64,000 nucleotides of DNA from Branchiostoma floridae (lineage: Eukaryota > Chordata > Leptocardii > Amphioxiformes > Branchiostomatidae), in assembly GCF_000003815.2 (NCBI RefSeq), contig NC_049993.1, positions 14,885,642 to 14,949,641 of the forward strand, in the 5' to 3' direction. The translations under genes were made by a program, and so were the position numbers. Of this stretch, positions 30,601-53,196 are shown one piece after another. The notes beneath the pieces are model-generated. The model ran no database searches, was not told where the DNA came from, and saw nothing but the letters and a program-made list of their open reading frames with translations. How positions within the stretch are numbered: position 1 is the first letter of the stretch; each line of letters starts with the position of its first letter.

Positions 30601-30854
30601 GTGGCAAGATATAACAAAATGTTAGGCTTGAGCTAATTTTGAATCCATTGTAGTCATTTATAGTTAGTTGATAGGAAATAGTAACGCATCGGTGGTTCAA
30701 AACATGTTGCCAATATCGATTAGAAAGTAAAAATTCAACACTCCATTTGACCAGTTTGTGACGTGTCGGTGGTATGTTTGCATATTTCTTTCGTGAACAG
30801 TTACCAACAGGCCGATTGAGATAACTGCTTTATCTCAGCGACTCCTTGTGTAGC

Positions 30855-31384
30855 TGCTGCGACAGTGTTCCAGTGCTGCTGTGACAGTGTTCCAGTGCTG
30901 CTGCGACAGTGTTCCAGTGCTGCTGTGACAGTGTTCCAGTGCTGCTGTGACAGTGTTCCAGTGCTGCTGTGACAGCGTTCCAGTGCTGCTGTGACAGTGT
31001 TCCAGTGCTGCTGGGACAGCGTTCCAGTGCTGCTGTGACAGTGTTCCAGTGCTGCTGCGACAGTGTTCCAGTGCTGCTGTGACAGCGTTCCAGTGCTGCT
31101 GGGACAGTGTTCCAGTGCTGCTGAGACAGTGTTCCAGTGCTGCTGTGACAGCGTTCCAGTGCTGCTGGGACAGCGTTCCAGTGCTGCTGTGACAGTGTTC
31201 CAGTGCTGCTGGGACAGTGTTCCAGTGCTGCTGGGACAGTGTTCCAGTGCTGCTGGGACAGTGTTCCAGTGCTGCTGGGACAGTGTTCCAGTGCTGCTGT
31301 GACAGTGTTCCAGTGCTGCTGGGACAGTGTTCCAGTGCTGCTGGGACAGTGTTCCAGTGCTGCTGGGACAGTGTTCCAGTGCTC
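30855..31384. repeat. 22-bp minisatellite, about 24 units
   Basis: Unit GACAGTGTTCCAGTGCTGCT plus two variable bases, repeated almost without length change. Variation is confined to a few positions (GTGTT or GCGTT; TGTGAC, TGCGAC, TGGGAC or TGAGAC). Because 22 is not a multiple of three, translation cycles every 66 bp, and long open frames appear on both strands. I do not regard any of them as a gene. Confidence 0.95.
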
Positions 31385-37345: not shown

Positions 37346-37526
37346 TTTACTGAATTACATGAAGAGATAACAAAAATAGAGTCAAACGAGAGTCATTCAA
37401 CAAAAAAATACAATATCAGTATGAGAGCAAATGATAAAAAACTCGAAATTTTAAAGAGCATGGTTTTGTACATGGTACACGATTAAGTCTAACATGCATA
37501 TTTATTGCCACAACTTTATCATGTCC
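37346..37526 (+). repeat. 181-bp flank block, first copy (matches 41078-41258)
   Basis: As far as I can read, identical to 41078-41258. It lies 67 bp before the first transposon left end. In the second copy the spacer is 69 bp and unrelated in sequence. Confidence 0.85.
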
Positions 37527-37584
37527 TGCAAAAATTGAATGCACGATCAATTCTTTGGTTTAAATTATAATATCTAATCATATA

Positions 37585-37593
37585 TATTAGGGC
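37585..37593. repeat. Left target-site duplication TATTAGGGC
   Basis: TATTAGGGC directly precedes the left terminal repeat here and directly follows the right terminal repeat at 53188-53196. The next base is C on both sides, so the duplication could be read as 9 or 10 bp. Confidence 0.75.
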
Positions 37594-38352
37594 CAGGGGG
37601 AATTTGCATATATCCCATGATGCACCGCGGTCTCAACTATATATACGCTCGAGCCGTGACGTCATCATTTGAATAATGGCGGGTCCTGGCGCTGGACCTT
37701 CCCCGGGAGCCGCTATAAACACTCTGTATACTGTGCAACCAAAGCTTCTGGACCATAATCCTGAGGTTTTGCTTTGTTGTCTGGACACGCGCAGAGTCCC
37801 GCTGCGGTTCTCGGGCGTTTCGTGTCTGGAAATAGTCACGAGACGCTGCCACATTGCGGTAACCGGCGATCCACCGAACGTCCGGCGGTTGTGCCTGATG
37901 CCTGACCGGGACGGTGACAGGATGTTTGCCGGTGTGCTGTCCCCGGTAAAACTACGCATCAAATCGAGCTCAACCATCAAAGTAAGGATTACTTTATGTC
38001 GTTAATCATTCTTGTGACCTTTGTGATTTTTTTTTGTGGTTGAAAGACGATTAATTCCGCAGCAAAAATATAGAAAATAAAACAGGCTACGAATGGGGTG
38101 GGAGTGGGGGTGTGGACACCGGCATAATTTGTCGTGTTGCACATTTCGGTACTGTCTCCTGTAAAATCGCAAGTTATACAATTTTCTTACTTGACAGGCC
38201 TTTTTGATTTCGCACGAACCCCGGTAATTTTTGTTGTTGTTGTCGAAATTGGAGTATTTTGATAGTAAAAAAGTTGTGTTTGGGCAGATTGATTACAGAA
38301 AACACAATCAAATCAATTTCTACAATCAATGCTTTGTGTCCAAAATGTCTTT
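37594..38352 (+). mobile_element. Duplicate left end of the large transposon, cut off by a gap
   Basis: Matches 41328-42087 almost base for base; the visible differences are one extra T in a T-run and one base in a G-rich run. It contains the terminal repeat, promoter and first coding exon of the HIRAN-like gene (37676-37981) and ends exactly at the 100-N gap. It is probably the same or the other-allele left end, assembled twice. Confidence 0.8.
37676..37981 (+). CDS. Exon 1 of HIRAN-like transposon gene, duplicate copy
   Basis: The 102 codons and the AAA|GTAAGG donor are the same as at 41410-41715. The second exon is missing because of the gap at 38353. Treat it as a partial or assembly copy, not as a second gene. 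Confidence 0.6.
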
Positions 38353-38452: not shown

Positions 38453-38887
38453 GGCTGTCTTCAAGGCCCATCCCATGTCCCAAGATAGTAATTTGCTTGT
38501 TGGGATGGATAGACATGACAGCCGTTCCGTCCAACGATATGAACTACATGACATGAAATTGATGAAAATGTACTGCTGTAAGCTTAAAACTATATGATTA
38601 GCAACTTAAGTCAAATACAAGGCTCCCAAACAATGGGATGAGTGGGATAGAATAAAAATCTATAAAAAAAATGTAAAGGAAAGACAGCGCTGATCTCTTT
38701 GAGTTTTTTTCTTATTTTCATTTGTAACCACCTTGAAATTTCTGCTGCTGTAGTACCTGACCTTGATAAGATCAATTTGGCCTTCACGAAAAAGTGATTT
38801 ACAGTGATTGTAAGCTTAACTTGAAATAGGAAAACAGGGTTGTCTTTGCAAGCTAGCAAGATTTATTTCCATTCTTTTCTTCCCCAG

Positions 38888-40387
38888 CTTGTTGTGGATG
38901 CTGGAGTGGTGTCCAGACTGGTGCTGCTGCTGGGGTGTGGGGAGTTGTCTGTGCAGACGCCCTGTCTCCGGGCTGTGGGCAACATTGTCACAGGAAATGA
39001 CATCCAAACTCAGGTATGTTTTTTCTGGATTGTTTTAACACCTAGAAATGCAAGATAGCAAAAAACTATTCTGTATGTATGTATATCCAATTACTTAATC
39101 TTTGTATGTTAGAATTTAGATTATTTACCTGTTTTTAAATACTTTACGTATTTAGTTTTGTTCACTTGCAATTAGCCCCATGGGAATGAATTTACAATAA
39201 AACCTTTTTATTAGATTTTTTTTCTGCTAGCAGAATGATTATCAATGCATAATAGATAGTCTAAAGTAGGAATCATACTCCCATGCTTTAGCCTAAGTAT
39301 ATGTATTGAATATTGGCTGTGCACAGAAACATTTTATTAGCAATAGTCATGTTGGTTTTATGGAACAATGTCTTCTTCAGGCATCTGTTTTCACTTCATG
39401 AACAAGACCTACCATTACCTGAAACTACAGCAGACAGAAACTACAGCAACACTGATAAGTGTAGTATAAACATAACAAGATGATGGTGGCCACCTAAACT
39501 CAAAGAAGAAGACCAATGTTGTACCTAAGTACACACAGAAGAAACTAACCAGTTATTCTTCCTGCCAGGCTGTGTTGGACCAAGGTGCCCTGGCCTGCTT
39601 CCCTGCCCTGCTGCGCCACCACAAGAACAACATCCAGAAGGAATCAGCCTGGACCATCTCCAACATCACTGCAGGGAACACCATCCAGATCCAGGCAGTC
39701 ATCGACGCAGGGCTCGTCCCTCCCCTCCTGGAGGTGCTACACAAGGTGGGGGAGCAGCCATGTAGTATTGTTCAGTTAGATATCCTTCCCGCAACTATCA
39801 GTGTGCAGGGCACATCTCCTCATTTTTTTACCCCTTGTGCCACACACAGTTGTGCAAGCTCTACAGCTTGTCCATTCTTCTGAGTTTATGCTCAAAAGTG
39901 ACTGGTCATTGTTGATTCTGAAGAGGGCGACGTTGAAAATTTGATTCTTGTACACCTTTATGTTGGAAGAAAGTTAAGCTTTAAAAATGATTATTACAAC
40001 CAACACAGATGAGCCTCAATGATACCTAGTCCGCTGGTTTGTGTAGTACTCAAAGAAGAGATGTAGATCATTCTGAAACTATTCTTTATAAGACGTAAGA
40101 CTACTTCAATGGACTGGACATTTTTAACACATCAGCAGTGTTTTTGGATGAAATTTCAAACTAAGGAAGTTGTTTCTGACAGTTGAGTGATGTTTTGTTC
40201 CCAGGGAGATTACAAGAGTCAGAAGGAAGCAGTGTGGGCCATCACAAACTTCACCTCAGGGGGCTCCGTGGAGCAGATTTGCCAGTTGGTGAACGCTGGT
40301 GTTATCAAGCCGCTGTGTGACATGCTTGTCGTCAGGGAGTCCAAGATTGTCCTGGTCATCCTGGACGCCATTGGAAACATCTTCACT
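38888..40387 (+). CDS. KPNA2: Importin subunit alpha (KPNA2 type), three internal exons only
   Basis: Importin alpha carries classical nuclear-localisation-signal cargo and pairs with importin beta. Exons 38888-39013, 39569-39745 and 40205-40387 are all phase 0 with good GT-AG ends and join into 162 residues. They cover about four ARM repeats in the second half of the protein. Landmarks: [29 protein letters not shown] and [19 protein letters not shown], with the W-N pairs that bind the cargo's basic residues. The wording ILDAIGNIF and ALACFPALL is closer to KPNA2 than to KPNA1/5/6 or KPNA3/4. The N-terminal importin-beta-binding region and first repeats, and the C-terminus, are not in the window on either side. 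It is therefore a fragment: misplaced contig, split gene or partial duplication. Confidence 0.85.
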
Positions 40388-41077
40388 GTAAGGGACAGAT
40401 GCTTTTAGTCTTATCTACATGCAGGTGTAGAAAAGGAAAACTGTTTGTGATATATTAATGAAAGACATCCAGGTAGGAAGATATGACAAATTACCCAAGC
40501 AACTGGATATTGTTTTGGAAATCATACAGAAAATCCTATCCAGTTGCTTGAGTACCCGGCAACTGCTATTTTGCATAGCAAAATTGTAATGCTTCTCAGG
40601 TTCACAGGTCAGGGAAGCACCAGGTATTTGTTTCACAGAACTGGGAGCTTGATCTTGGCTTCTACGTCTGCTTGAAGATTAGCTTTGGTTCATGTGTCTA
40701 GAAGTCTTTGTAGAGTTGTGTTGACTAAATGCCATCACAAACAGCTACCTTACCGTACCAGCATGTCAAATTTCAAGTAAGTTTATGGTAAAAGATGCAT
40801 TGGACTTTTTAACCATCTATTGCCTAGAAAAAAGGACCATATCAAAATTAGCAATTGCTTATTAGCAGCATACCACCAGCAAAATCTCTGTTTAACTAGT
40901 TGCCACCTATGTTGGTTTAATGTTGTATTTTGTTAGAATGCCATCCCTCTGTTAAGTTGGTTCAGTCCAACCACAGACTCCTAAAGTCAGTCATGTTGGA
41001 AATAAACTCCTCACGTTTGCTGCATTAATGACAATTCCCATAAACGGTCTCACTCGGGACTCTAATCAGCTCGAAAT

Positions 41078-41258
41078 TTTACTGAATTACATGAAGAGAT
41101 AACAAAAATAGAGTCAAACGAGAGTCATTCAACAAAAAAATACAATATCAGTATGAGAGCAAATGATAAAAAACTCGAAATTTTAAAGAGCATGGTTTTG
41201 TACATGGTACACGATTAAGTCTAACATGCATATTTATTGCCACAACTTTATCATGTCC
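41078..41258 (+). repeat. 181-bp flank block, second copy (matches 37346-37526)
   Basis: Begins TTTACTGAATTACATGAAG. See the first copy; the 69 bp that follow (41259-41327) have no counterpart at 37527-37593. Confidence 0.85.
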
Positions 41259-41327
41259 ATAGCAAGACAAACAGTGTGTGGCTTTTACGGCCATTCACGA
41301 CGTCCCCAAGCCGCCTGTAGCTTCCAC

Positions 41328-41359
41328 CAGGGGGAATTTGCATATATCCCATGATGCAC
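41328..41359 (+). repeat. Left terminal inverted repeat of the large transposon
   Basis: Thirty-two bases pairing with 53187-53155. Contains the octamer ATTTGCAT and the start of a STAF/ZNF143-like site. Confidence 0.85.
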
Positions 41360-41409
41360 CGCGGTCTCAACTATATATACGCTCGAGCCGTGACGTCATC
41401 ATTTGAATA
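41334..41409 (+). promoter_or_regulatory. Promoter of the HIRAN-like gene inside the transposon end
   Basis: In order: octamer ATTTGCAT (41336-41343), STAF/ZNF143-like TCCCATGATGCACCGCGG (about 41347-41364), TATA box CTATATATAC (41371-41380), full CRE palindrome TGACGTCA (41391-41398), then ATG at 41410 in the context AATAATGG. With a TATA box at 41372 transcription should start near 41400, leaving a 5' leader of only about 10 bases unless an upstream start is used. The copy at 37594-37675 is the same. Confidence 0.6.
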
Positions 41410-43330
41410 ATGGCGGGTCCTGGCGCTGGACCTTCCCCGGGAGCCGCTATAAACACTCTGTATACTGTGCAACCAAAGCTTCTGGACCATAATCCTGAGG
41501 TTTTGCTTTGTTGTCTGGACACGCGCAGAGTCCCGCTGCGGTTCTCGGGCGTTTCGTGTCTGGAAATAGTCACGAGACGCTGCCACATTGCGGTAACCGG
41601 CGATCCACCGAACGTCCGGCGGTTGTGCCTGATGCCTGACCGGGACGGTGACAGGATGTTTGCCGGTGTGCTGTCCCCGGTAAAACTACGCATCAAATCG
41701 AGCTCAACCATCAAAGTAAGGATTACTTTATGTCGTTAATCATTCTTGTGACCTTTGTGATTTTTTTTTTGTGGTTGAAAGACGATTAATTCCGCAGCAA
41801 AAATATAGAAAATAAAACAGGCTACGAATGGGGTGGGAGGGGGGGTGTGGACACCGGCATAATTTGTCGTGTTGCACATTTCGGTACTGTCTCCTGTAAA
41901 ATCGCAAGTTATACAATTTTCTTACTTGACAGGCCTTTTTGATTTCGCACGAACCCCGGTAATTTTTGTTGTTGTTGTCGAAATTGGAGTATTTTGATAG
42001 TAAAAAAGTTGTGTTTGGGCAGATTGATTACAGAAAACACAATCAAATCAATTTCTACAATCAATGCTTTGTGTCCAAAATGTCTTTTCATGATCACCAT
42101 AATTTTATTGTGGTTGAAACACAAGTCAAAACAGGAGGACAGGAGTAAATTCCACAACAGAATCATGCTATGAATGACTTCAGTGCATTGTTTGTTAACA
42201 TTACTAGTATGATATCCTCTGTAAAACTGTAATTCTGATCAAGTTACTAGTCTACTATGTATGTATGTATAACGTTAGTGGTTTTCTTTATTTAACATGT
42301 CTTTGTGATGTTATTTAACCTCTGATAATTATGTTGTCAGAAGTCGAGGGTTTTTGTTGCAATAAAAGGGCACGTGTACAAGGCAGCTTTGCAAATTATT
42401 GTGGCAGAAAGTGACCAATATCTAACTTATCTTACAGTCCGCATGTTTTATTTGTTAACAAAAATGTGTTAAATGCTTTACTTGATATTAGATTAACTAT
42501 GATGACTTCAGTGTCTCAAATTATGACAAGACTTGAAGAACTAAACAATGGTGGCTTTTTTTTTACAGTTCAACTGTTCTCAAGATGCCAACATGGAGGA
42601 GGCACAGGGGACACTACTGTGGGAGTTTGAGGTGCTGCCAACAGACAGGACAGCTTTGAAGCTTCCACTAATCACAGCAGACATCCCAGATCTACCAGAT
42701 GATGTGGACCTTCAACCTGTCGACCCCAGCTTGCTGCATCCGGACCAGTGTAATTGCCAGAAATCTACACAGTCACCTATGGTCATTGTTGACATGGAGC
42801 CAGACATGCAGTTCGACCCTCTTTCAGAGACTTTGCAGGACATTCAATTGTCTGGGGAAGAATCTGATGGCTCAGATAAAAATGAAGACTCTGGCGGAGA
42901 CACAGACACTGAGGAACGGGATGACCAAAGGCTAAGTGGACAGATATTTCGTGTTGCAGGGTCAACGTGGCAGACATGCTATCAAGAAGCACTAGATGCA
43001 TGTTCTACTTTGCGACGAGAAGGTAAAGATATAGAAACCCGTGCAGTGTTTGAGAGGGACAATATAAAGGACAAAAATGCTATTAAGTTTGAAGTTTTTG
43101 TTGATAACTCCTGGCAGATAGTAGGCCACTGTCCAGGTCCTAAAATTCCCAAATTGACCAGGGCGATGAAGAAAGGCGTGGTCATTGAGATAACTTTGCA
43201 CAGATTAACACTTGATTATTGCACCCCTGCTAAGAAGAACCTGTACAAAGCTTATGTAAAAATTGTAAAGGAAGGTACCTGGGAAAAGGATAGTGTGAAC
43301 TATCAGTACAATTCGTTTATTGCAACATAG
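41410..43330 (+). CDS. Transposon-encoded HIRAN-like domain protein, 355 residues, two exons
   Basis: Exon 1 41410-41715 (102 codons, AAA|GTAAGG) joins exon 2 42569-43330 (acceptor T-run then ACAG) in phase 0. Residues 1-102 are an unrecognised N-terminal module (VLLCCLDTRRVPLRFSGVSC region). The middle is acidic (about 198-221, with GEESDGSDKNEDSGGDTDTE). Residues about 229-340 resemble a HIRAN domain: FRVAG, then ERDNIKDKNAIKFEV and IVGHCPGPKIPKL, matching the HIRAN pattern RExDNxxDxNAIxV followed by a glycine turn. HIRAN domains of HLTF and Rad5 bind single-stranded 3' ends. Here it could bind transposon or break ends; that is inference. It lies tail to tail with the transposase gene, 1.4 kb apart. 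AATAAA at 43373-43378 can end the message. Confidence 0.75.
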
Positions 43331-43372
43331 ATGTTCCTTTCCAAGAATCTCCAAAATATGGTCTTTGATGGA

Positions 43373-43378
43373 AATAAA
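43373..43378 (+). terminator. Poly(A) signal AATAAA for the HIRAN-like gene
   Basis: Perfect hexamer 43 bases after the stop codon; another AATAAA lies near 43403. Confidence 0.55.
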
Positions 43379-43508
43379 TAAGGCTTAAGGACACCATTCT
43401 TTAATAAATATTATTTAGCAACTTCTTGTTACAGTCTAACCTAGTCTTGCCACAAGTGAAATATTTAGCATCTTTTGATATCTACGCAGAAACAAAGATT
43501 AAGACTTT

Positions 43509-43624
43509 AGTATTGTATCCCTGTTAATAAGAACCTGTACAAAGCTTTTGTCAAGATCGTAAAGAAAGGTAACTGGGAGAGGAATACTGTAAACTACAAG
43601 TACAATTCGGTTATTGCAACATAG
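43509..43624 (+). pseudogene. Extra diverged copy of the C-terminus of the HIRAN-like gene
   Basis: About 116 bp repeats the last 38 codons and stop of the gene just upstream (KNLYKAFVKIVKKGNWERNT against KNLYKAYVKIVKEGTWEKDS). The frame is open and changes are mostly conservative or silent, and it ends in the same NS-IAT-stop. It has no start or upstream part, so it is a fragment: a tandem duplication, or a piece of a related element. Confidence 0.75.
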
Positions 43625-44440
43625 AAACCAGGCTTTTAGCCAGGCAGGCGTACACTTACTTGGAAACTATATTCAAATTCCTTCTATTCTCTATGTCTTA
43701 TCAATGCAACATGTATCTCCCGACTTGCAACAAAATAGCATCTTTTATGAGTATACATTGAGTAATAAAACCAAAGTTTCTGAAGAACACAGGATCTGAA
43801 GATCATGCCTCATATGTACAAAAAACTAGTTTGACACAAGGCAAAAACTGATATCTTATAAGGTCAGAACCTGTATAACACTTATGACTATGTCTATACA
43901 TGTGTTCTCCTCTTTCCTGACTTGCAACAAAATAACATCTTTTATGAGTATCATTGAGTAATTAAACTTAAGGTTCTGAAGAAAACAAAATCTGAAGAGC
44001 ATGCCTCATATGTTCAATAACTAGTTTGACAGTTACAATAACTAGTTACAATAACTAGTATAACACTTGCAACAATGTATATACCTGAGTTCTCTTCTTT
44101 CTTGACTTGCAACAAAATAGCATCTTTTAAGTATACATTTAGCAATTAAATTAAAGGTTCTGAAGAAAACAAGATCCGCAGTGCTTGCCTCATATATACA
44201 ATAACTAGTTTGACAGAAGGATACTTCAAAGCATATAACTAGGCAAAAACCCGTATAACACTTGCGACAATGTCTATATATACCTGTGGTCTCAAGATCA
44301 AAAACTGATTGTCATATAAGGTCAATACCTGTATAACACTTGCAACAATGTCTATACCCGAGTTCTCTTCTTTCCTCACTTACAACAAAATAGCATCTTT
44401 TACAAGTATACATATACAGAATAAAAAGTAAGCATACATA
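43625..44440 (+). repeat. Tandem repeats of roughly 190 bp between the two transposon genes
   Basis: The word CTTGCAACAAAATAGCATCT or a near variant recurs at 43724, 43921, 44106 and 44379. Each is followed by AGTATACATTGAG, AAGGTTCTGAAGAA and TGCCTCATAT words. Unit lengths are 197, 185 and 273, the last enlarged. An earlier, more decayed trace starts near 43444. Confidence 0.8.
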
Positions 44441-44699
44441 AAATAAAAGACTTAGATATATACAACAGTGGTGACAGGTGGAAACAAGTGGCTATAGGCA
44501 CTTTCTTCTGTAAAAAAACAAACAATGCTTGGTACCATGACTAAAAAGTACATTTATATCAAAATCTCACTCATCAAAAAATCGGGCAAGTGGGGTAGGA
44601 CATGAGCTTGCCCAATCAGCACTTTCACTTGGCTAGGACAATAAAACTTTTGGACTTGTCCAACCCTGGATGTGGATATAACAGTTTAAAAGTAATCTT

Positions 44700-45416
44700 C
44701 TAAACAGGTGGCAAGCTACTTGGGACCTCAGGCAGTGGCACTTCTGGTCTGTGCATTATCTGCCTGATGGTCCCCCTGTTCCTGACCGGCAGGACACCCC
44801 TTGCAGTTGTGAAAATCGAAGCGTCTTCCCTTCTACAAGTGCGCAGTCGGTGGAGGCGCAGACGACCATCCTCAGGGTCATCATTGAAGGATGGGTAAGT
44901 GTCTTCTGCTTCCCTGAACCTCTCACTGATTGTCCAGTAGTAGAAAGGCAGGTCTGGGTCAATTCTCTTTGAGAATTCCCTGTGAAAGACAAATAAATAA
45001 TTACAAACCTGTTCAAGTGAAATAATACATGCCATGGACACAAGAATTAAGAATACTGCCCATAATGACCTGTTCAAAAGTGATTTGTAATGTACGTCGC
45101 AAGTACAATGTGAGTACATGAAACCTTTCAATAATTTTACAAAAAGACCATACTGTAATTGTAAATGTTTGAAAAGATACTTAAATACCTGACTTCTGTA
45201 GGCCATCGAGCATGCAACTCCTTGAGGGTAAAGGTGTTTCCCATGTGTCGGTGAAGTCCAGCAAAGAAACACTCTACATCGTCTGTCGTGCTCGCTCTTG
45301 GATGCTCTTCATAGCCAATTGTCGCACTCTCACTTCTCCGCAGCTCCATTGACTCGATATTTGTTGTGACCGCGATGAGGGTTTCTCGGCTCCACCCAAG
45401 TACTCCTCGACCGAAC
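44700..45416 (-). CDS. C-terminal exons of the transposase with DDVECFF block
   Basis: Exon 45416-45189 has [20 protein letters not shown]; exon 44979-44700 has [15 protein letters not shown] and ends [16 protein letters not shown]. From memory, and without a search, this combination recurs in long uncharacterised predicted proteins of corals and lancelets, which would fit a widespread transposon family. The D-x-x-E in a helix near the end recalls the position of the catalytic glutamate of P- and hAT-like transposases; this is inference. Confidence 0.5.
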
Positions 45417-48400
45417 CTAAAAAAAGCGACCAGAACAAAGATGTTCATTTCACTGGGTCTTTAATCCATCTAGGCATTCTCGAGTTATACTATTTGGTAA
45501 AGCCCCTATCTCACTGGATTTGCAAGTTAAAGAGAGCGGTTACTGCATTTTTTATATCTAATCATATTCATTGTGTAGGGTTTTCTTGCCTGTTGATGTC
45601 AAGAGTTGAGAAGTCTGGAGGGTAACGGCGCCATGGGGGGGAACGGTGATATGGCATCAGCTCATCAAGGATCATGTCCATCATGGCTGTGTTCTTCTCC
45701 TTCCTTTCTTCCTCTGAAAGCCCTCGGCCATCAGCTGCTTCATGCCATCCAGCAACAACTTCGATATAGCATGCTTCCCGGTGATACCCTCTGTGTCGGA
45801 GAAACCTGACCATGTTGTAGGACAGCAAGATCTCTGCATCGGTGACAGACTGCTTTCGGAAACCAAACAGGGCTGCCTCTGTTAGCCCTGGCTTGGGCTC
45901 ACCATCTTGCGGATGGAGCGCTTCTTCGAGAGCATGGTGGTTAAACCACCGGGGAGGCTCTTTTCTGAGGTGACCAGCAATTCTCTTGAGGAGATGGCAA
46001 TGATCTTCTCTTCTGTGAAGGTAGTTGAGGCCGTCTTTCTCTGGGACATACATGTGGTGTGTGAAATCAACCCCCTCAGTTCGAAGTTCCTCTATTCTGA
46101 GACGGTATCTGTATGTGGCCATTATTGATCGCAGCATGTCAGCCATGCACTCAGGCGAGTTGGCACGGAAGGTTGAGGGGCCACAATCTGGGGGCACGAG
46201 TTGTCCACGCAGTCTTACTACAGCATCCTCCTCTCTCATCTGCTCCACTGTTGTGAGTTTGTGGTATTCTTCAATCACTTCTGGTGGGATAGCCTTCTCC
46301 CTCATCTCTGTCAATGGCATGCCATTGTCATCCTCTGCACAGTGAAACCACAATCATCAATTAGTACAAACTGATGGGGAGTTCAGAGTCTATTGTGACA
46401 TAAGCTGAACACATTTGGTTCGACAAGGGCAGAATTTGTGAGAAGATACAAGATGGCTTCACCATATTCCCCCTGCAGAATATCCCTGAAATCAGGTGAA
46501 TTTGTTGCATTGTAAGTGTACTTGGGCCAAAGATATATCACACGGATAAAACATACTAATGTCAGTGGTACTGCACAGTCTGATATAATAGAGAGGCCAA
46601 ACATTAAAGTCAAGTCAGCAGAGAAAGAAACTAACCTCCAACTTTCCGGAGTGACTTCAGCACAGTGTCAGAAGCCATCCTCCTGACACTGTCTTTCACC
46701 CCACGAATGATTTCATAGAGATGAATAGGGCGCTTGTTCCCAAGCGTCCTTAGGGAGTTGAACTCTCCATCCGTAACATCACCTGACAACAAATCACAAA
46801 GCACCACATCACTGATAGATTTGCAAAATGAAAAAGCTCTAAATGGAAAATTAGCTTTGAGTACCTAAAAAAGCCCCCAGCGCACAGGCTCTAGGGCCAA
46901 CCCACTAGCATTGCACCAGAATATACCAATGGTCAACACCTCAGCAAAGACTATGTAGTCTACAAATGGACTTTATCATGAATTTTCGTTGAAATGTCTC
47001 AATAAAGAAGACAAATTTTCCTATAATGGATTTTGTTCAGCTTTGCATCATTCAACAGAAGCACTGTCATATTACAAAATACAGACAAGAGTAACACTCT
47101 ACTTTTACTTTTGTGCTTTAACTTCAACTTTTGTCTTTACTATGTTTATAGTGGAGTTAAGCTTCACATGTAAAGTATAGACTCTTACCAACAGGTATCA
47201 GTCCCAGCTTCTTGGCCTCCTCATGGCACTTGTCCAGGAACTGCTGGAGGAACTGATCCCGGATACTGTGATATGGAATGAGCAGGATTGGCACAGCATA
47301 GGGCTTCTGATTTCGTCTTTCGTCAGACACCATAACGACCAATGCATGATCAGCAGCCACTCTCTTCTTCTTGAAGAGATTGTGCAAGTAGGTTTTGTTG
47401 TCTTCTCTCAGTTCCACCAGACATTGGGCCACACGGCCAGGTTGAGGGGAAGCAGTTCCAAGAGCTGCCAGCAGCCTTTCATACCTACATAATATAGAAA
47501 GCATGTGCATGAAGGTAAAGGTAAAGCAGTCATCCTCAACTGATGTGAAGCATAAATTGTGCTTTTTCAAGTAGCTCAGGTACATGTAGTTGTGCAATGC
47601 GGCTTTGCTAACTACTTGATTTATATAACTATGCAGACAGAAAATTGAAGTCAATATTTCTAAAAGTCACCTTTCATAGAAGGCTTTGGCCTGCTCCAGA
47701 AGGGTATTGTACTCTACCCTGTCCCATGCCAGGTTTTTCAGCACATCTGTAGATGAGTTAGCCTGCTCGAATTTCTTCTTATACCTCTTGTTTGCTGCCT
47801 CAAGGCCACCTTTCAGCAGATCAATGTCTTCTCCAAGATCCTGAAGGAGACTGAGGAGACAGGCCTCTAGATTGCGTGGCACGCAGGACTTCCCAGCTTC
47901 CCTGACAAGGACCATGCGTCTGTCGTTGTCAGCCCTTAGCTTCTCCAGGCTTCCATCCCCAAGATCAACGTCTCCAGCCCATTTGCCCTTTGTAGATGTC
48001 TGCAGAGCAACCTTCAAATCACAAGCATCAGCCTTAAACCAGACACGTGCTCCTGGCTTCATCTTGGCAAAGGATTCCAGTGCAGCGATCTGTATATAAC
48101 AGAACAAACTTTACTGTATACTAATCTGATATGCATAAAATAGTAAAAGTTTTCCCAACATCCATGTCTATTCTTTAGTAGTGTGTCTACCAAATGAAGC
48201 TCAATAATTTCCATTCATAGACATCACAAGGAGCAGAACTGCTGATACTAGTAGTATTACTGCTCTTTTTTTTTTAAGGTTTGCAAACTCACATGGATAC
48301 TGGAGTTGCCATCAAACTTCTCATTCTGTGCCAGTCTGTACATGGTGTCCAGGGAGGGGGCGGCGACATTAATATGTGCCTGTCAGAGAAGGAAGAGAAT

Positions 48401-51400
48401 CATATGTCAAATAAGACATGACAAGTAAAAAAAAATAGACAAAAATTACACAGTAACAGAACAAGATGTACTTTCTTCAAATGCACAGTATTTAAGTGCC
48501 CCTAATTCTTTCACAATTCATGTTATCATACTACTCAAGGTAAATATCACTCTGAGCCAGCCTCCTTAGTACTGTACTAACTTAGGGAATCTACTGGAAT
48601 AACTAAGTATGTCAAATACATACAAAATGGAATTGAAAAGGTATCGCTATTATGGCAAATATTCAGATACTACATTAAGTATATGGACTGGTTATCATCA
48701 CAATTGAAAATTTGTGAAACATAAAAGCCATCTTTATACATGTAGTAACCTTCAATGGGTCCAAGTCAGTGCTTTCCAGGCCACTCCACCCTGGCCCCCG
48801 AAACAGCCTCAAGAACCTGGTTGGAAACTCAGCACACATGCTCTCCAACCAGCTGGCATAGTCTGGAGAAATGCTGACCTACAGAACATACATGAGTACC
48901 ATTGTATAAATTAATACCATAACAAGTTGGACATAACACTGTCTCTTGCTATGAAGTCTGCAATCTTCATCATATCTGATATCACCATAGATAATTTGTT
49001 CACACCCTCCTACCACAATGAACAAAGTTCCTGATCACACTTCTAATTGCCCAACACTACATGGCTTGGGGCCTGGCTAATTGCACAGGAAGATGGTAGC
49101 AAAAATGAATTGGGGTTTTCGGAAAACCCTGTTCAGTCCAGACAGGGAAATGGGGCGGAAAACCCTGTCCAGTCTGAAAAGAGGGTCTGCATAGGGGTTC
49201 CTGGCAATGCTTAAAAGTATTACTTCAGACAGCACTTACACAGCATAATGAGTGACCCAAAGGTGCAATATGCATGCACACAAAGTCAGTTCTGTCAAAT
49301 GCAAAGTACCCAATTAACACTTATCTGGTAGGACATGAGGGGAGAGAATTGTCCATCAAACAATGGATAGTGAGTGTCCGTCAATTTCGGGTTGTTAAAT
49401 AATGGCAATACATTACAAAGACAGGCTTTGAAGAGCTGGTCTGTTTAAATCCTGGTCTGTTTAAATCCTGGTTTAATAGAATGACTGCGAAAGGTTTCAA
49501 TATCAACACGACTTTAGTACACAATGTTATAACATTACATATATTTTACAATGCACTACAATAAAGCCGAGATGGCATTTTTCAAACGATAGTACAAGTT
49601 GTGAGCTATATAGAACTATGTATCCTTTTAAAAATAATGTGTTTTATTTGCAAAATTATGCCGTAAGGCTAATAGCATGTTCAGTCTCAAAGACTTAAAG
49701 AGTAGACGTTTTTTATATGATGAGAAGTAACAATGATGGATGATTTTTGTTAAGTAATAATTTTTGTATGACATTGTGTCACACTTCAAGTTGATGTTAT
49801 TTCTGTGCTTAGCCGTATTAAAGATTAAAAAAAAATGTTGTTGTATACTAGTACTTAGTAGCTTACACCGTATACCCCCATGCAGACCCTCTTTTCAGAC
49901 AGCTTACAATGTATACCCCCATGCAGACCCTCTTTTCAGACTGGACAGGGTTTTCCGCACTCCGGACTGGACAAGTTTTTCCGAAAACCCAAATGAATTG
50001 AGGTAATTAGTTACAAAATTAGACAAAACTAGCCAAAACAACAAACAAAAAACTAAGAAGGCATTCTTTACTGGAAATGCTATCATTTTAAATTAGTAAA
50101 TCAGATAAGTATCATTATATACTGATGCTAACCTGATGTACATTGGTGGCACTGAAGAACTCCATCTGGTATTGTAGTAATCCAAATGGCATCCTGTCAA
50201 TTTGGAGCAGAGGGGTGGAGGTGCCAGGCCTGTTGGTGCTCAAGATGTGGGCAAACTTGTACAGGATGTTGGGCTTGTTGTGTTCTTGTAGGGTGGACAT
50301 GGCATTGATGGACTTTGAAAAGAAGTCGGTTGGGTATGTGGAAATATTCTTTGCTGTAGCTACAACTGAGAACAGTTTATCACCAAAGGATAGAACTGAA
50401 GATGATTGAACGATTTGAGGAAGCAGCATAAGCATGAAAGAATCAAATTCTGATTGGGTCAGGGCCTTGCAAGAAGACAGTACTGTTGTGACATCATCCT
50501 GGCAGCTATGTTCAGTTTGTGTTTGCTGGTCCACAGTCAACTTCTTTGTCTGGCATCCCCTGCTGACTGTTTCTTTGGTTTTCTTTGCACGGCTGATTGA
50601 ATTCGTCTCAAGACCAAAAGACTTCACAGCAGCTTCAAGGGATTCGTCGAATTTCGTCCTCCACTTCCTGCACCTGTTCCTCACTGTGTTTGCTGTGAAT
50701 AGAAAGAGAAACAGTGTGTCACTTAAGAGAAACCTTTGCTATTGACAAGGTATGACTTCATATCCCAACACCTTGAGGGACTACACTCACACTAAATGTG
50801 AGAAATAATAGAACTTCTTTTGATTTCTATCAGTTCTAAACTTGTTGCAATAATCTATCAAGGTAAAGACAGCAAGAGCCATTGTTTTTCACTGACCTGA
50901 AAGAAGTTCACTGCTCCTGGTTGCCGTCTTGATTGATGTTGCAGCCTCTGTCCAAAAGGGACTGTTAGCGTGCCTCATTGGCCAGGATGCTGTGTCAGTG
51001 ACATTTTCATCCTGATCAAGGTGGCTTAGATCCAAAAACTGGATCAATGCCTTGTCCTCCTTATCAGTCCACTGATGGTGTTTCACAGGCCGAGGGGACT
51101 TGGCCAGTTGAATCTTTGGGGTGAGCATGTGCCCCAAAGATCGTGTTATCTGTTGCAAATACAGGATACATGTAATTTGTAGCAACAAGGAGAAACTATA
51201 GCAAAGTTTGCTATAGTTTAACTGTTACTGAGTGTCATCATCAGTCTTGGCTCACCAATCTTACTCGACTTCTGAATAGTTTCTGCAGGGATTCATGATG
51301 TAATAAACATACTATGAAATTACATCACATCAGTGCACTATGAAATAACATCACATTAGTGAAATAATTGTATTAATGGTATAATTGACAACAGTAAAAC

Positions 51401-52500
51401 TGTCCTTAACCTGTAAGGTCATCAGTGAAAGCTAACAATTTGTAAATTTGCTACATCCTGTTGGACCATTCCACAACAGCCAATGATGATCTTGATCGAG
51501 GAAACATTTTCTGTCTTATGGCAATTAATCACCTTAGGACTTAGGAAAGAGAGAGGTCGGCGAGCTCCTCCATCTTTCTTTCCATGTTTGTGCTGCCTCC
51601 TCTTCCCAGACGGGGTGTGACCACTCCCGCCAACATGTGGCCTCTTTTGGGGCGTTGATGGAGTAGACATCATGACTGAGGGAAACAATATTGGACAGTC
51701 TAAGATGATTTTTACCCTTTTATAGAATATATTTCCTTGAGGTATTTCAATGAAGTTATTGATGACACTTTGCTCACTTTGGGAGAATGAGACACAGTTA
51801 TTGAACATGTCAATAAAGAACCAAAATTAAAGCAAAATGTACCTTTAACATTACAATTTAGGATAATTTTCTATCTATGGATGTCCCATAAGATATAAAC
51901 TGGTCTGGTATGCAATTTTTTTCTGTTTCATTGGCAAGGATTAAAAACTCTCGAAAATAAACTATGATATTCATAAACATCACTGCTAACCTGGGGAATC
52001 AACAATAATCCATAAATTACAAATCTTACACACCACTGCACCACTTGATAACTTACAAATTCTGACAGACTCTCAAATTATGAAACTGAAAGACTACAAC
52101 TACTTTTTGACAAGATTTATTGGTCCAAATATCAACGACAGTACGTATATGACAGTGAAGGTGAAAATGTAGATCAGACTCCTTCGTATAACTCACAAGC
52201 AAGCCTAACCAGTCAATAATGACAAGATAGGTAAACAAGTTCTACGGCTATGTGATCCCGAGCGACCGTCTGTTTAGCGAATATTAAGCCCACAAACGCC
52301 CACCCTTGAAAAGTCTGTGCTACATAAATCTAGTTCTTTTGCAAGTACAGTAATACGTTCAGGTTGGGCTCTCATGAGTTTCAAGTGAATTCATCGACCC
52401 GAAGTACGAAAATCCATCTTGGTAACTTCCGCCTTTGCGACATATACGATACCCACTCACCTCCGCATTTTAAGCGAGTTTCCAGTCCAACCAACAACAT
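44700..52500 (-). CDS. Putative transposase with N-terminal Myb/SANT-like domain, about 1,108 residues, 12 coding exons
   Basis: Exons: 52500-52461, 51675-51533, 51149-50897, 50692-50133, 48878-48750, 48379-48293, 48089-47671, 47484-47189, 46782-46636, 46334-45590, 45416-45189, 44979-44700. All junctions keep one frame to a single TAG. All donors are GT except 45589-45588, which is GC. If the second methionine in exon 2 is used the protein is 1,094 residues. Order (1,094 numbering): basic N-terminus ([10 protein letters not shown]), Myb/SANT-like domain 74-142, a long middle with DACDL and GDVDLGDG near 411-436, and a conserved-looking C-terminus with TTDDVECFF at 969-976. Acidic residues at these places could form an RNase H-type active site, but I cannot align them to a named superfamily. 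Being the only large enzyme-sized gene between the terminal repeats, it is the natural transposase. Confidence 0.75.
45588..45589 (-). other. GC-AG splice donor in the transposase gene
   Basis: Minus strand AACAG|GCAAGA. Using it joins AG to G of the next exon (codon AGG) and keeps the frame. Reading through instead gives a stop seven codons later. The AG|GCAAG context is the normal one for GC-AG introns. Confidence 0.7.
47189..48089 (-). CDS. Central acidic-motif exons of the transposase
   Basis: Exons 48089-47671 and 47484-47189. The first carries [13 protein letters not shown] and [16 protein letters not shown], then a helical stretch ([20 protein letters not shown]). The second continues ERLLAALG to [13 protein letters not shown]. 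Isolated conserved-looking aspartates at 411, 414, 430, 432 and 435 (1,094 numbering) are candidates for metal binding. No family match is claimed. Confidence 0.5.
49113..49990. mobile_element. Nested Mutator-like MITE in a transposase intron
   Basis: Inverted ends start GGGTTTTCGGAAAA on both sides and continue, with changes, for some 90 bp (through CTGTCCAGTCTGAAAAGAGG and GGTCTGCAT). It is flanked by the perfect 10-bp repeat AAATGAATTG (49103-49112 and 49991-50000). A 9-11 bp duplication with GGG-type ends fits Mutator-like elements. The right arm has an internal 41-bp direct duplication (49861 and 49902). There is no transposase inside. Confidence 0.85.
50659..51149 (-). CDS. Myb/SANT-like DNA-binding module of the transposase
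   Basis: Exon 51149-50897 and the start of exon 50692-50133 join in phase 1. They read [15 protein letters not shown], then [15 protein letters not shown], then [13 protein letters not shown]. The spaced tryptophans and the final basic helix with VRNRCRKW are the signature of Myb/SANT-like trihelix domains, common as the DNA-recognition part of DNA-transposon proteins. It probably binds the terminal repeats. Confidence 0.75.
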
Positions 52501-52616
52501 TTTCCGTTTGAATAGGTTTTCCCTGAATGTCTGCTAAGTCCCCATACTGTAACAATCTTTCCAAACTTTCTAAATTGCTTTAGGAAGGTAAAACTACGGC
52601 GCGTTCGTGTTTGTTT

Positions 52617-53187
52617 ACGTGTCCGCCATCTTTTCTTTACCGGCTTATTTGCATATGTTAATGAGTTTAAAGGGCCTCCGCGCGACTGTCAGGCGTATGT
52701 AAACACGACCAACCATGCGATCCTGCGCGGCTGTTTTCGTGATCTTCCTATGAGTGCTTTTTGGTGCTTTTCGTTTTTTTAGACACACAATCAATCTACC
52801 ATACGTAAACTACACTTTTTTTAAAAAAGCACCACTATTTGATTAACCAATGCGGAAGATTTGATAGCACTATATGCAAATCTCCAACATGCGACAACGG
52901 GATTTACGCATGAGAAGTCTATCGGCATTTACCTCAAAATTAAACATGTTCCTCGGGTATCACACACATCAACACTTTTCATGGAAAACTACAATTCCCG
53001 AACTCTAAAAAATGACGAAAATTACCCACCTAATTCTCTTGGCTGCTGTCCAACATGGCCAACATCTTGAAGATGCCCATGCCCTACATCTTGGGCTTTG
53101 CAGTTCCGGGTTTGCCGGCGTTCGCGCGGAAAATCGAACGCGATCGAAAGTAAAGTGCATCATGGGATATATGCAAATCCCCCCTTG
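52617..53187 (-). promoter_or_regulatory. Transposase promoter region and right end of the transposon
   Basis: Reading inward from the right terminal repeat: octamer and STAF-like site in the repeat itself, ACTACAATTCCC (52988-52999, plus strand; the second half-site of ZNF143 motifs), octamer ATGCAAAT (52874-52881), octamer ATTTGCAT (52647-52654), then AAAAGATGGCGGAC (minus strand, about 52634-52621), a YY1-type start-site element. The first coding ATG is at 52500, about 120 bases further. Confidence 0.5.
53155..53187 (-). repeat. Right terminal inverted repeat of the large transposon
   Basis: Thirty-three bases, inverted relative to 41328-41359 and to the duplicate at 37594. Confidence 0.85.
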
Positions 53188-53196
53188 TATTAGGGC
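53188..53196. repeat. Right target-site duplication TATTAGGGC
   Basis: Same nine bases as 37585-37593; a tenth base (C) also agrees. Confidence 0.75.

Follow-up and report, generated by a model that had tools for sequence, protein, structure and literature searches.

Two convergent genes lie between positions 41328 and 53187 of a 64,000-nucleotide stretch of Branchiostoma floridae DNA (the window), which sits on contig C15 of the 513.4 Mb, 431-contig genome that was searched. The interval carries the sequence of a large DNA transposon. Gene 1, on the plus strand, encodes a HIRAN-type protein of 355 amino acids from two exons; gene 2, on the minus strand, encodes a protein of 1,094 amino acids from 11 exons, weakly identifiable as a P-like RNase H transposase (coordinates in Table 1). 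Both splice without an internal stop, as an earlier note made from the sequence of the window had claimed, although 13 coding exons are modelled rather than the fourteen it counted. No reading frame longer than 122 amino acids occurs in the window element outside the exons of the two genes. A GC donor follows gene-2 exon 9 in 7/7 copies examined. Gene 2 is open in four of the seven (window, C9, C7a and C7b, the first two taken from mis-joined assemblies), while C2 and C1 carry frameshifts and the C168 copy is incomplete. Gene 1 is spliced and open in five (the same four and C1), and a gene 1 of type B was located by tblastn in C2 and C168, with a gap in the latter. A nested inverted repeat occupies gene-2 intron 3 (49104-49199 and 49874-49999; arms of 44 and 39 nt) and is present in other copies too.

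The transposon family itself is confirmed. Seven insertions have nearly identical ends and a 9-bp target duplication that matches on the two sides, which, together with the two convergent genes, bears out the earlier description of a large two-gene DNA transposon. The inverted ends of the window element (41326-41359 and 53155-53188) have arms of 34 nt that are 94% complementary, and a 26-mer from the element end matches three times within the window (0 matches in 100 shuffles), the third end copy being at 37599. The 33-bp ends and 9-10 bp duplication first proposed are thus sound as to the ends, and the duplication is 9 bp, but the flanks of 41328 and 53187 differ. All three insertions with both ends on one gap-free stretch have a matching 9-bp duplication: C7a (TAGCAGGTG), C7b (GGCCACGAT) and C1 (GATTCCGCC). 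Four further pairs with matching duplications span scaffold breaks. In C15, 37594 pairs with 53187 (TATTAGGGC); the right end on C9 pairs with the window left end at 41328 (AGCTTCCAC); the two ends of the C168 insertion (TCACGTGAC) were placed apart by scaffolding; and of two right ends on C2 only the second, past an N gap, matches (GGACTGACC). The C2 and C168 copies are both scaffolded in pieces, and the C2 insertion looks like a mis-join of the same kind as the window copy.

The earlier note had named single, unpaired ends as the finding that would speak against a transposon. Beside the seven pairs there are seven unpaired ends: one left end, that of the assembled C9 copy (flank ATATGACGT), and six right ends, namely the first on C2 (flank AGTGTAAAT) and those on C6, C302, C2:9264236, C5 and C7:16605004, the last two being unpaired without a reading of their flanks. 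The genome-wide count of ends is based on the right end, for which 13 places were listed. The C7a and C7b copies are gap-free, 12,454 bp long and open in both genes, and the dispersed copies are 98-99% alike across the gene-2 half. Matched duplications, inverted ends and dispersed near-identical copies fit a recently active DDE transposon, which would move by a cut-and-paste process. Fragments of the genes also cluster on contig C6 at about 19.5-27.8 Mb (22/83 gene-2 rows and 12/45 gene-1 rows of the searches), many of them with stops.

The earlier note's further view that the interval 41328-53187 is an intact element is not supported, because the interval joins two insertions. The flank of 41328 is AGCTTCCAC and that of 53187 is TATTAGGGC; the end that pairs with 53187 is another left end, at 37594, which lies 3.7 kb leftward beyond a gap of 100 Ns. 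About 760 bp of the element left end, with 181 bp of flank, is present twice (37346-38352 and 41078-42087), and between the two copies lie 100 Ns and exons of an importin-alpha gene. These exons, located at 38.9-40.4 kb by tblastn with importin-alpha peptides, continue on C9, where the one that follows lies some 200 bp rightward of the C9 copy; the C9 insertion interrupts the importin-alpha gene, separating its exon at about 40.2-40.4 kb (window numbering) from that following exon. Since the importin-alpha exons continue beside the C9 copy and the AGCTTCCAC flank is the C9 right flank, the interval 41328-53187 is a chimera, its left part from the C9 insertion and its right part from the C15 insertion. 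Positions 38453-41327 and some part of the element come from the C9 insertion. The C15 flank at 37346-37526 (181 bp) is repeated at 41078-41258.

The identity of gene 2 was approached through domain profiles and through residues conserved among distant relatives. The PF21787 profile (TNP-like RNase H, N-terminal) matches the whole protein at E=0.067, below the cut-off, and the piece encoded by exons 6-8 at E=0.0028 (18.4 bits, cut-off 24.6). D411, D414, the TDG motif (D633), REDHxH and DDVE (E974) are invariant across three lineages (the window, C1:31.73 Mb and C13:11.85 Mb), the relative at C1:31.73 Mb carrying an in-frame stop, and on this conservation the D, D, DxxH and E residues are candidate catalytic residues. 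The enzyme of about 1,100 residues with a Myb domain, as it was first described, is correct in length, but its Myb match is weak (PF00249, E=0.44). The window proteins matched no THAP domain, with E values as high as 10 allowed (HMMER filters drop most matches above about 0.1), and had no Pfam match to a MULE transposase domain. Searches of solved structures with gene 2 returned no match, and profiles A1 and A2 each returned seven weak matches to unrelated proteins (best E 1.2 and 0.097, respectively). Among 141 viral-contig and 81 genome-contig pattern matches, no relative outside the host genome was confirmed.

The HIRAN-like character ascribed to gene 1 holds by way of a relative and not for the window protein on its own, which scores 13.3 bits against HIRAN (PF08797; cut-off 24.7) and has no helicase domain. 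The homologue on C13 passes that cut-off, at 26.1 bits, and its alignment with the window and type-B proteins has an hhalign E of 5e-6 (probability 86%); an N-terminal match of gene 1 to its C13 counterpart (score 16.9, against at most 13.0 in 10 shuffles) is no more than suggestive. Among the titles found in the open-licence literature, none reports that a eukaryotic transposon carries a HIRAN protein, and no paper joining Academ, amphioxus and transposon was found there. A second dispersed family in the same genome has a HIRAN-type gene with TAG (8 rows at 31-33% identity); two of its copies, C9:22105500-22112500 and C17:17299800-17303800, are 98% identical over 3.3 kb and extend beyond the stretches read, and no transposase was found near this family in 7 kb.

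Both genes are under selection. For gene 2, comparison of the window with C9, C7a and C7b gives dS of 0.0095-0.012 and dN of 0.0012-0.0020. Gene 1 is under purifying selection, with dN/dS of 0.18-0.29. Against C9, C7a, C7b and C1, the window gene 1 has an identity of 0.59-0.60, a dS of about 1.6 (near saturation) and a dN of 0.29, for a ratio of 0.18; against C233 the identity is 0.85, dS 0.245 and dN/dS 0.29, and C7a against C233 gives dN/dS 0.21. With a gene-1 dS of 1.6 beside a gene-2 dS of 0.012, gene 1 appears to have been swapped between elements. When the window is aligned with type-B copies, the change is sharp: the left end starts with an identical 60-bp bin, divergence runs through gene 1 and its intron, and rightward of about 43838 the identity is 93-100% per 60-bp bin up to 44476. 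A second switch is found in C233, whose gene 1 is of type A (84-87% amino acid identity to the window, 50-73% to type B): its gene-2 exon 11 is 98.2% identical to that of the window, identity is 68-77% in those parts of exons 2-4 and 6-10 that could be matched, and exons 1 and 5 have no DNA match. In this comparison dS is saturated for exons 6, 9 and 10, whose dN/dS is left unused; the DNA identities stand. Diverged repeats at 43718-44413, with a spacing of about 185-273 bp, lie between the 3' ends of the two genes and adjoin the divergence switch.

The apparent swap might instead be an artefact in which assembly joined two unrelated left ends to the same right part. Mis-joining is demonstrable for the window and C9 copies, C2 and C168 are also in pieces, and any single junction could have arisen in this way. 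As an account of the whole pattern the artefact is improbable, however: each type-A left end is paired with a standard right end by a 9-bp duplication (TATTAGGGC and AGCTTCCAC), the contig that holds the junction near 43838 has no gap, and C233 is an independent mosaic by the exon identities given above. On the simplest reading of the pattern, co-resident elements would have recombined near their convergent 3' ends.

The convergent pairing of a transposase with a HIRAN-type gene is found in four lineages (window/type B, C233, C1 and C13), with gene 1 of the C1 lineage at 31739029-31739439; their transposases are 34-71% identical in most exons. On C13, upstream of the HIRAN exon, the gene-1 strand has an XPG_N match (31.5 bits, cut-off 22) and further frames, without a Pfam match, that are taken by eye to resemble EXO1. 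The XPG_N and HIRAN matches, both above their cut-offs, share one strand and may belong to one protein or to two. Both C13 genes lie between the arms, about 11.4 kb apart, of a short G-rich inverted repeat. The three XPG pieces of C13 have no match in the other fetched loci, so that XPG was seen at this one locus. In the window, neither the two genes nor the ten non-exon frames scanned have an XPG nuclease or a helicase domain.

Gene 1 could be thought a captured host gene, carried as a passenger with no role in movement. HIRAN domains occur in host proteins, and another HIRAN locus of the same genome, C12:570257, scores higher (58.7 bits). That a passenger would be held in the same convergent arrangement across four lineages of such divergent transposases, and under purifying selection, makes this explanation very improbable.

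For the superfamily, comparison is drawn here with a published account of Academ and related elements. AcademH elements are described there as carrying a helicase and generating a 9 or 10 bp duplication, and AcademX elements as carrying a nuclease and generating one of 3 or 4 bp, the duplication length being proposed to relate to the accessory enzyme (PMC10045372). IS256/MuDR duplications are given as 4-10 bp, and a DxxH signature is reported for the P, hAT, MuDR, Kolobok and Dada superfamilies (PMC10045372). The window family resembles AcademH in its 9-bp duplication and differs in having a HIRAN-type protein and no detected helicase; it approaches AcademX through the C13 relative of both genes, with XPG upstream of the HIRAN gene, and differs in having no detected XPG and a 9-bp, not 3-4 bp, duplication (PMC10045372). 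As each subgroup fails on a feature examined (the helicase in one, XPG and the 3-4 bp length in the other), the element is filed as neither AcademH nor AcademX. Academ is the best guess because the duplication equals the AcademH value in that source and because a relative bears XPG.

Resemblances to other groups were also weighed. Gene 2 is like the P element and THAP9 in its DxxH signature and has a weak RNase H match, below the cut-off, but no THAP match; the P element duplication is 8 bp and that of the window family 9 bp, and classical P membership was set aside on these two features. The 9-bp duplication falls within the 4-10 bp range of MuDR/MULE elements (PMC10045372), but MULE membership was set aside for lack of a MULE domain match. 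PIF/Harbinger, with a duplication of about 3 bp and a separate Myb-like protein, was set aside on the 9-bp duplication and the weak Myb match inside the transposase itself. As to the HIRAN family, the gene-1 homologue on C13 exceeds the PF08797 cut-off, and the window protein differs from family members such as HLTF in falling below it and having no helicase domain.

The element could also belong to a superfamily of its own, not yet named, within the P/hAT/MuDR/Kolobok/Dada group; the C13 XPG would then have been acquired independently, or be an EXO1-like gene of the host that adjoins an old element. The sole family-level signal is the P-type RNase H domain, below its cut-off, the DxxH signature is shared with that whole group in the published description (PMC10045372), XPG occurs at one locus, and C13 has no detected duplication. 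We consider this rather unlikely: the C13 nuclease exons are on the gene-1 strand, directly upstream of the gene-1 homologue and inside the inverted repeat that frames both genes, and the 9-bp duplication fits AcademH as the source describes it (PMC10045372).

The reading favored here, which we hold to be somewhat probable, is that of a recently active family, most likely an Academ variant, with gene 2 as a P-like DDE transposase and gene 1 as a HIRAN-type accessory. The superfamily that the earlier note left uncertain is narrowed accordingly by the domain search of the large protein, with PF21787 below its cut-off. Several points weigh against this placement. The window copy is chimeric; both the RNase H and the window HIRAN matches fall below their cut-offs; and a search of the genome for HIRAN listed two loci, C12:570257 and the C13 gene, the window gene being missing. 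A relative on C10 has no gene 1 in 16.8 kb that include four N gaps, and the target duplication looked for on C13 was not found. Academ membership is argued indirectly, from the 9-bp length and the XPG-bearing relative.

Apart from the transposon, self-comparison of the window revealed a tandem array at 30853-31383 with a step of 22 bp.

Table 1. Features of the transposon insertions in the window (window numbering)
Feature	Position	Strand	Basis or remark
Left 9-bp target duplication TATTAGGGC, C15 insertion	37585..37593	.	identical to 53188-53196
True C15 left end, first 759 bp, followed by 100-base N gap	37594..38352	+	99.7% identical to 41328-42087; flank matches right-end flank
Foreign stretch; importin-alpha matches at 38891-38989, 39566-39739, 40187-40399	38453..41327	+	tblastn; C9 site
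Left terminal inverted repeat; C9 insertion by flank AGCTTCCAC at 41319-41327	41328..41359	+	
Gene 1 exon 1, N-terminal part of HIRAN-type protein	41410..41715	+	spliced reading frame
Gene 1 exon 2 and stop codon; weak HIRAN match at residues 233-304 (~42959-43174)	42569..43333	+	homology to C13 HIRAN protein
Relic of second gene-1 3' end, type A	43493..43625	+	111/133 positions identical to gene-1 3' end
Approximate switch point, window against type-B copies	43838..43877	.	diverged to the left, 93-100% per 60-bp bin to the right
Gene 2 exon 11 and stop codon	44700..44979	-	spliced frame
Gene 2 exon 10, E974 proposed catalytic	45189..45416	-	spliced frame, cross-lineage conservation
Gene 2 exon 9, REDHCH (DxxH), ends at GC donor	45590..46334	-	
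Gene 2 exon 8, TDG (D633 proposed catalytic)	46636..46782	-	
Gene 2 exon 7, PF21787 match below cut-off	47189..47484	-	
Gene 2 exon 6, KADACD (D411/D414 proposed catalytic)	47671..48089	-	
Gene 2 exon 5	48293..48379	-	
Gene 2 exon 4	48750..48878	-	
Gene 2 exon 3	50133..50692	-	
Gene 2 exon 2, weak Myb-like match	50897..51149	-	
Gene 2 exon 1, start codon	51533..51675	-	
Right terminal inverted repeat	53155..53187	-	
Right 9-bp target duplication TATTAGGGC	53188..53196	.	identical to left duplication

A scheme for movement can be proposed in which the gene-2 transposase would recognize the 33-bp ends, presumably through its N-terminal part, and by DDE catalysis would insert the element with a 9-bp stagger. 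The HIRAN domain of HLTF reportedly binds 3' DNA ends; by analogy, the gene-1 protein, with its C-terminal HIRAN-type domain, probably holds exposed 3' ends of the DNA while the element is being excised or inserted. From an arrangement of XPG plus HIRAN like that of C13, the window lineage may have lost the nuclease. A more specific proposal, offered tentatively, is that these elements are a third Academ lineage, one with HIRAN alone after loss of the nuclease from an XPG-plus-HIRAN ancestor, with a 9-bp duplication made without a helicase, and with a HIRAN cassette that is traded between elements.

If the elements are such a HIRAN-only lineage, the 9-10 bp duplication would be the transposase's own stagger, with no helicase needed, contrary to the relation proposed between duplication length and accessory enzyme (PMC10045372). 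Were an Academ element to make a 9-bp duplication with neither accessory enzyme, the two would be separated and the proposed relation would become testable. The HIRAN-type protein, being under selection, is a candidate transposon part, and the gap-free near-identical copies could serve as the basis of an assay. The family also offers an example of convergent genes seemingly recombining near their 3' ends, by which one gene would be swapped and the other kept.

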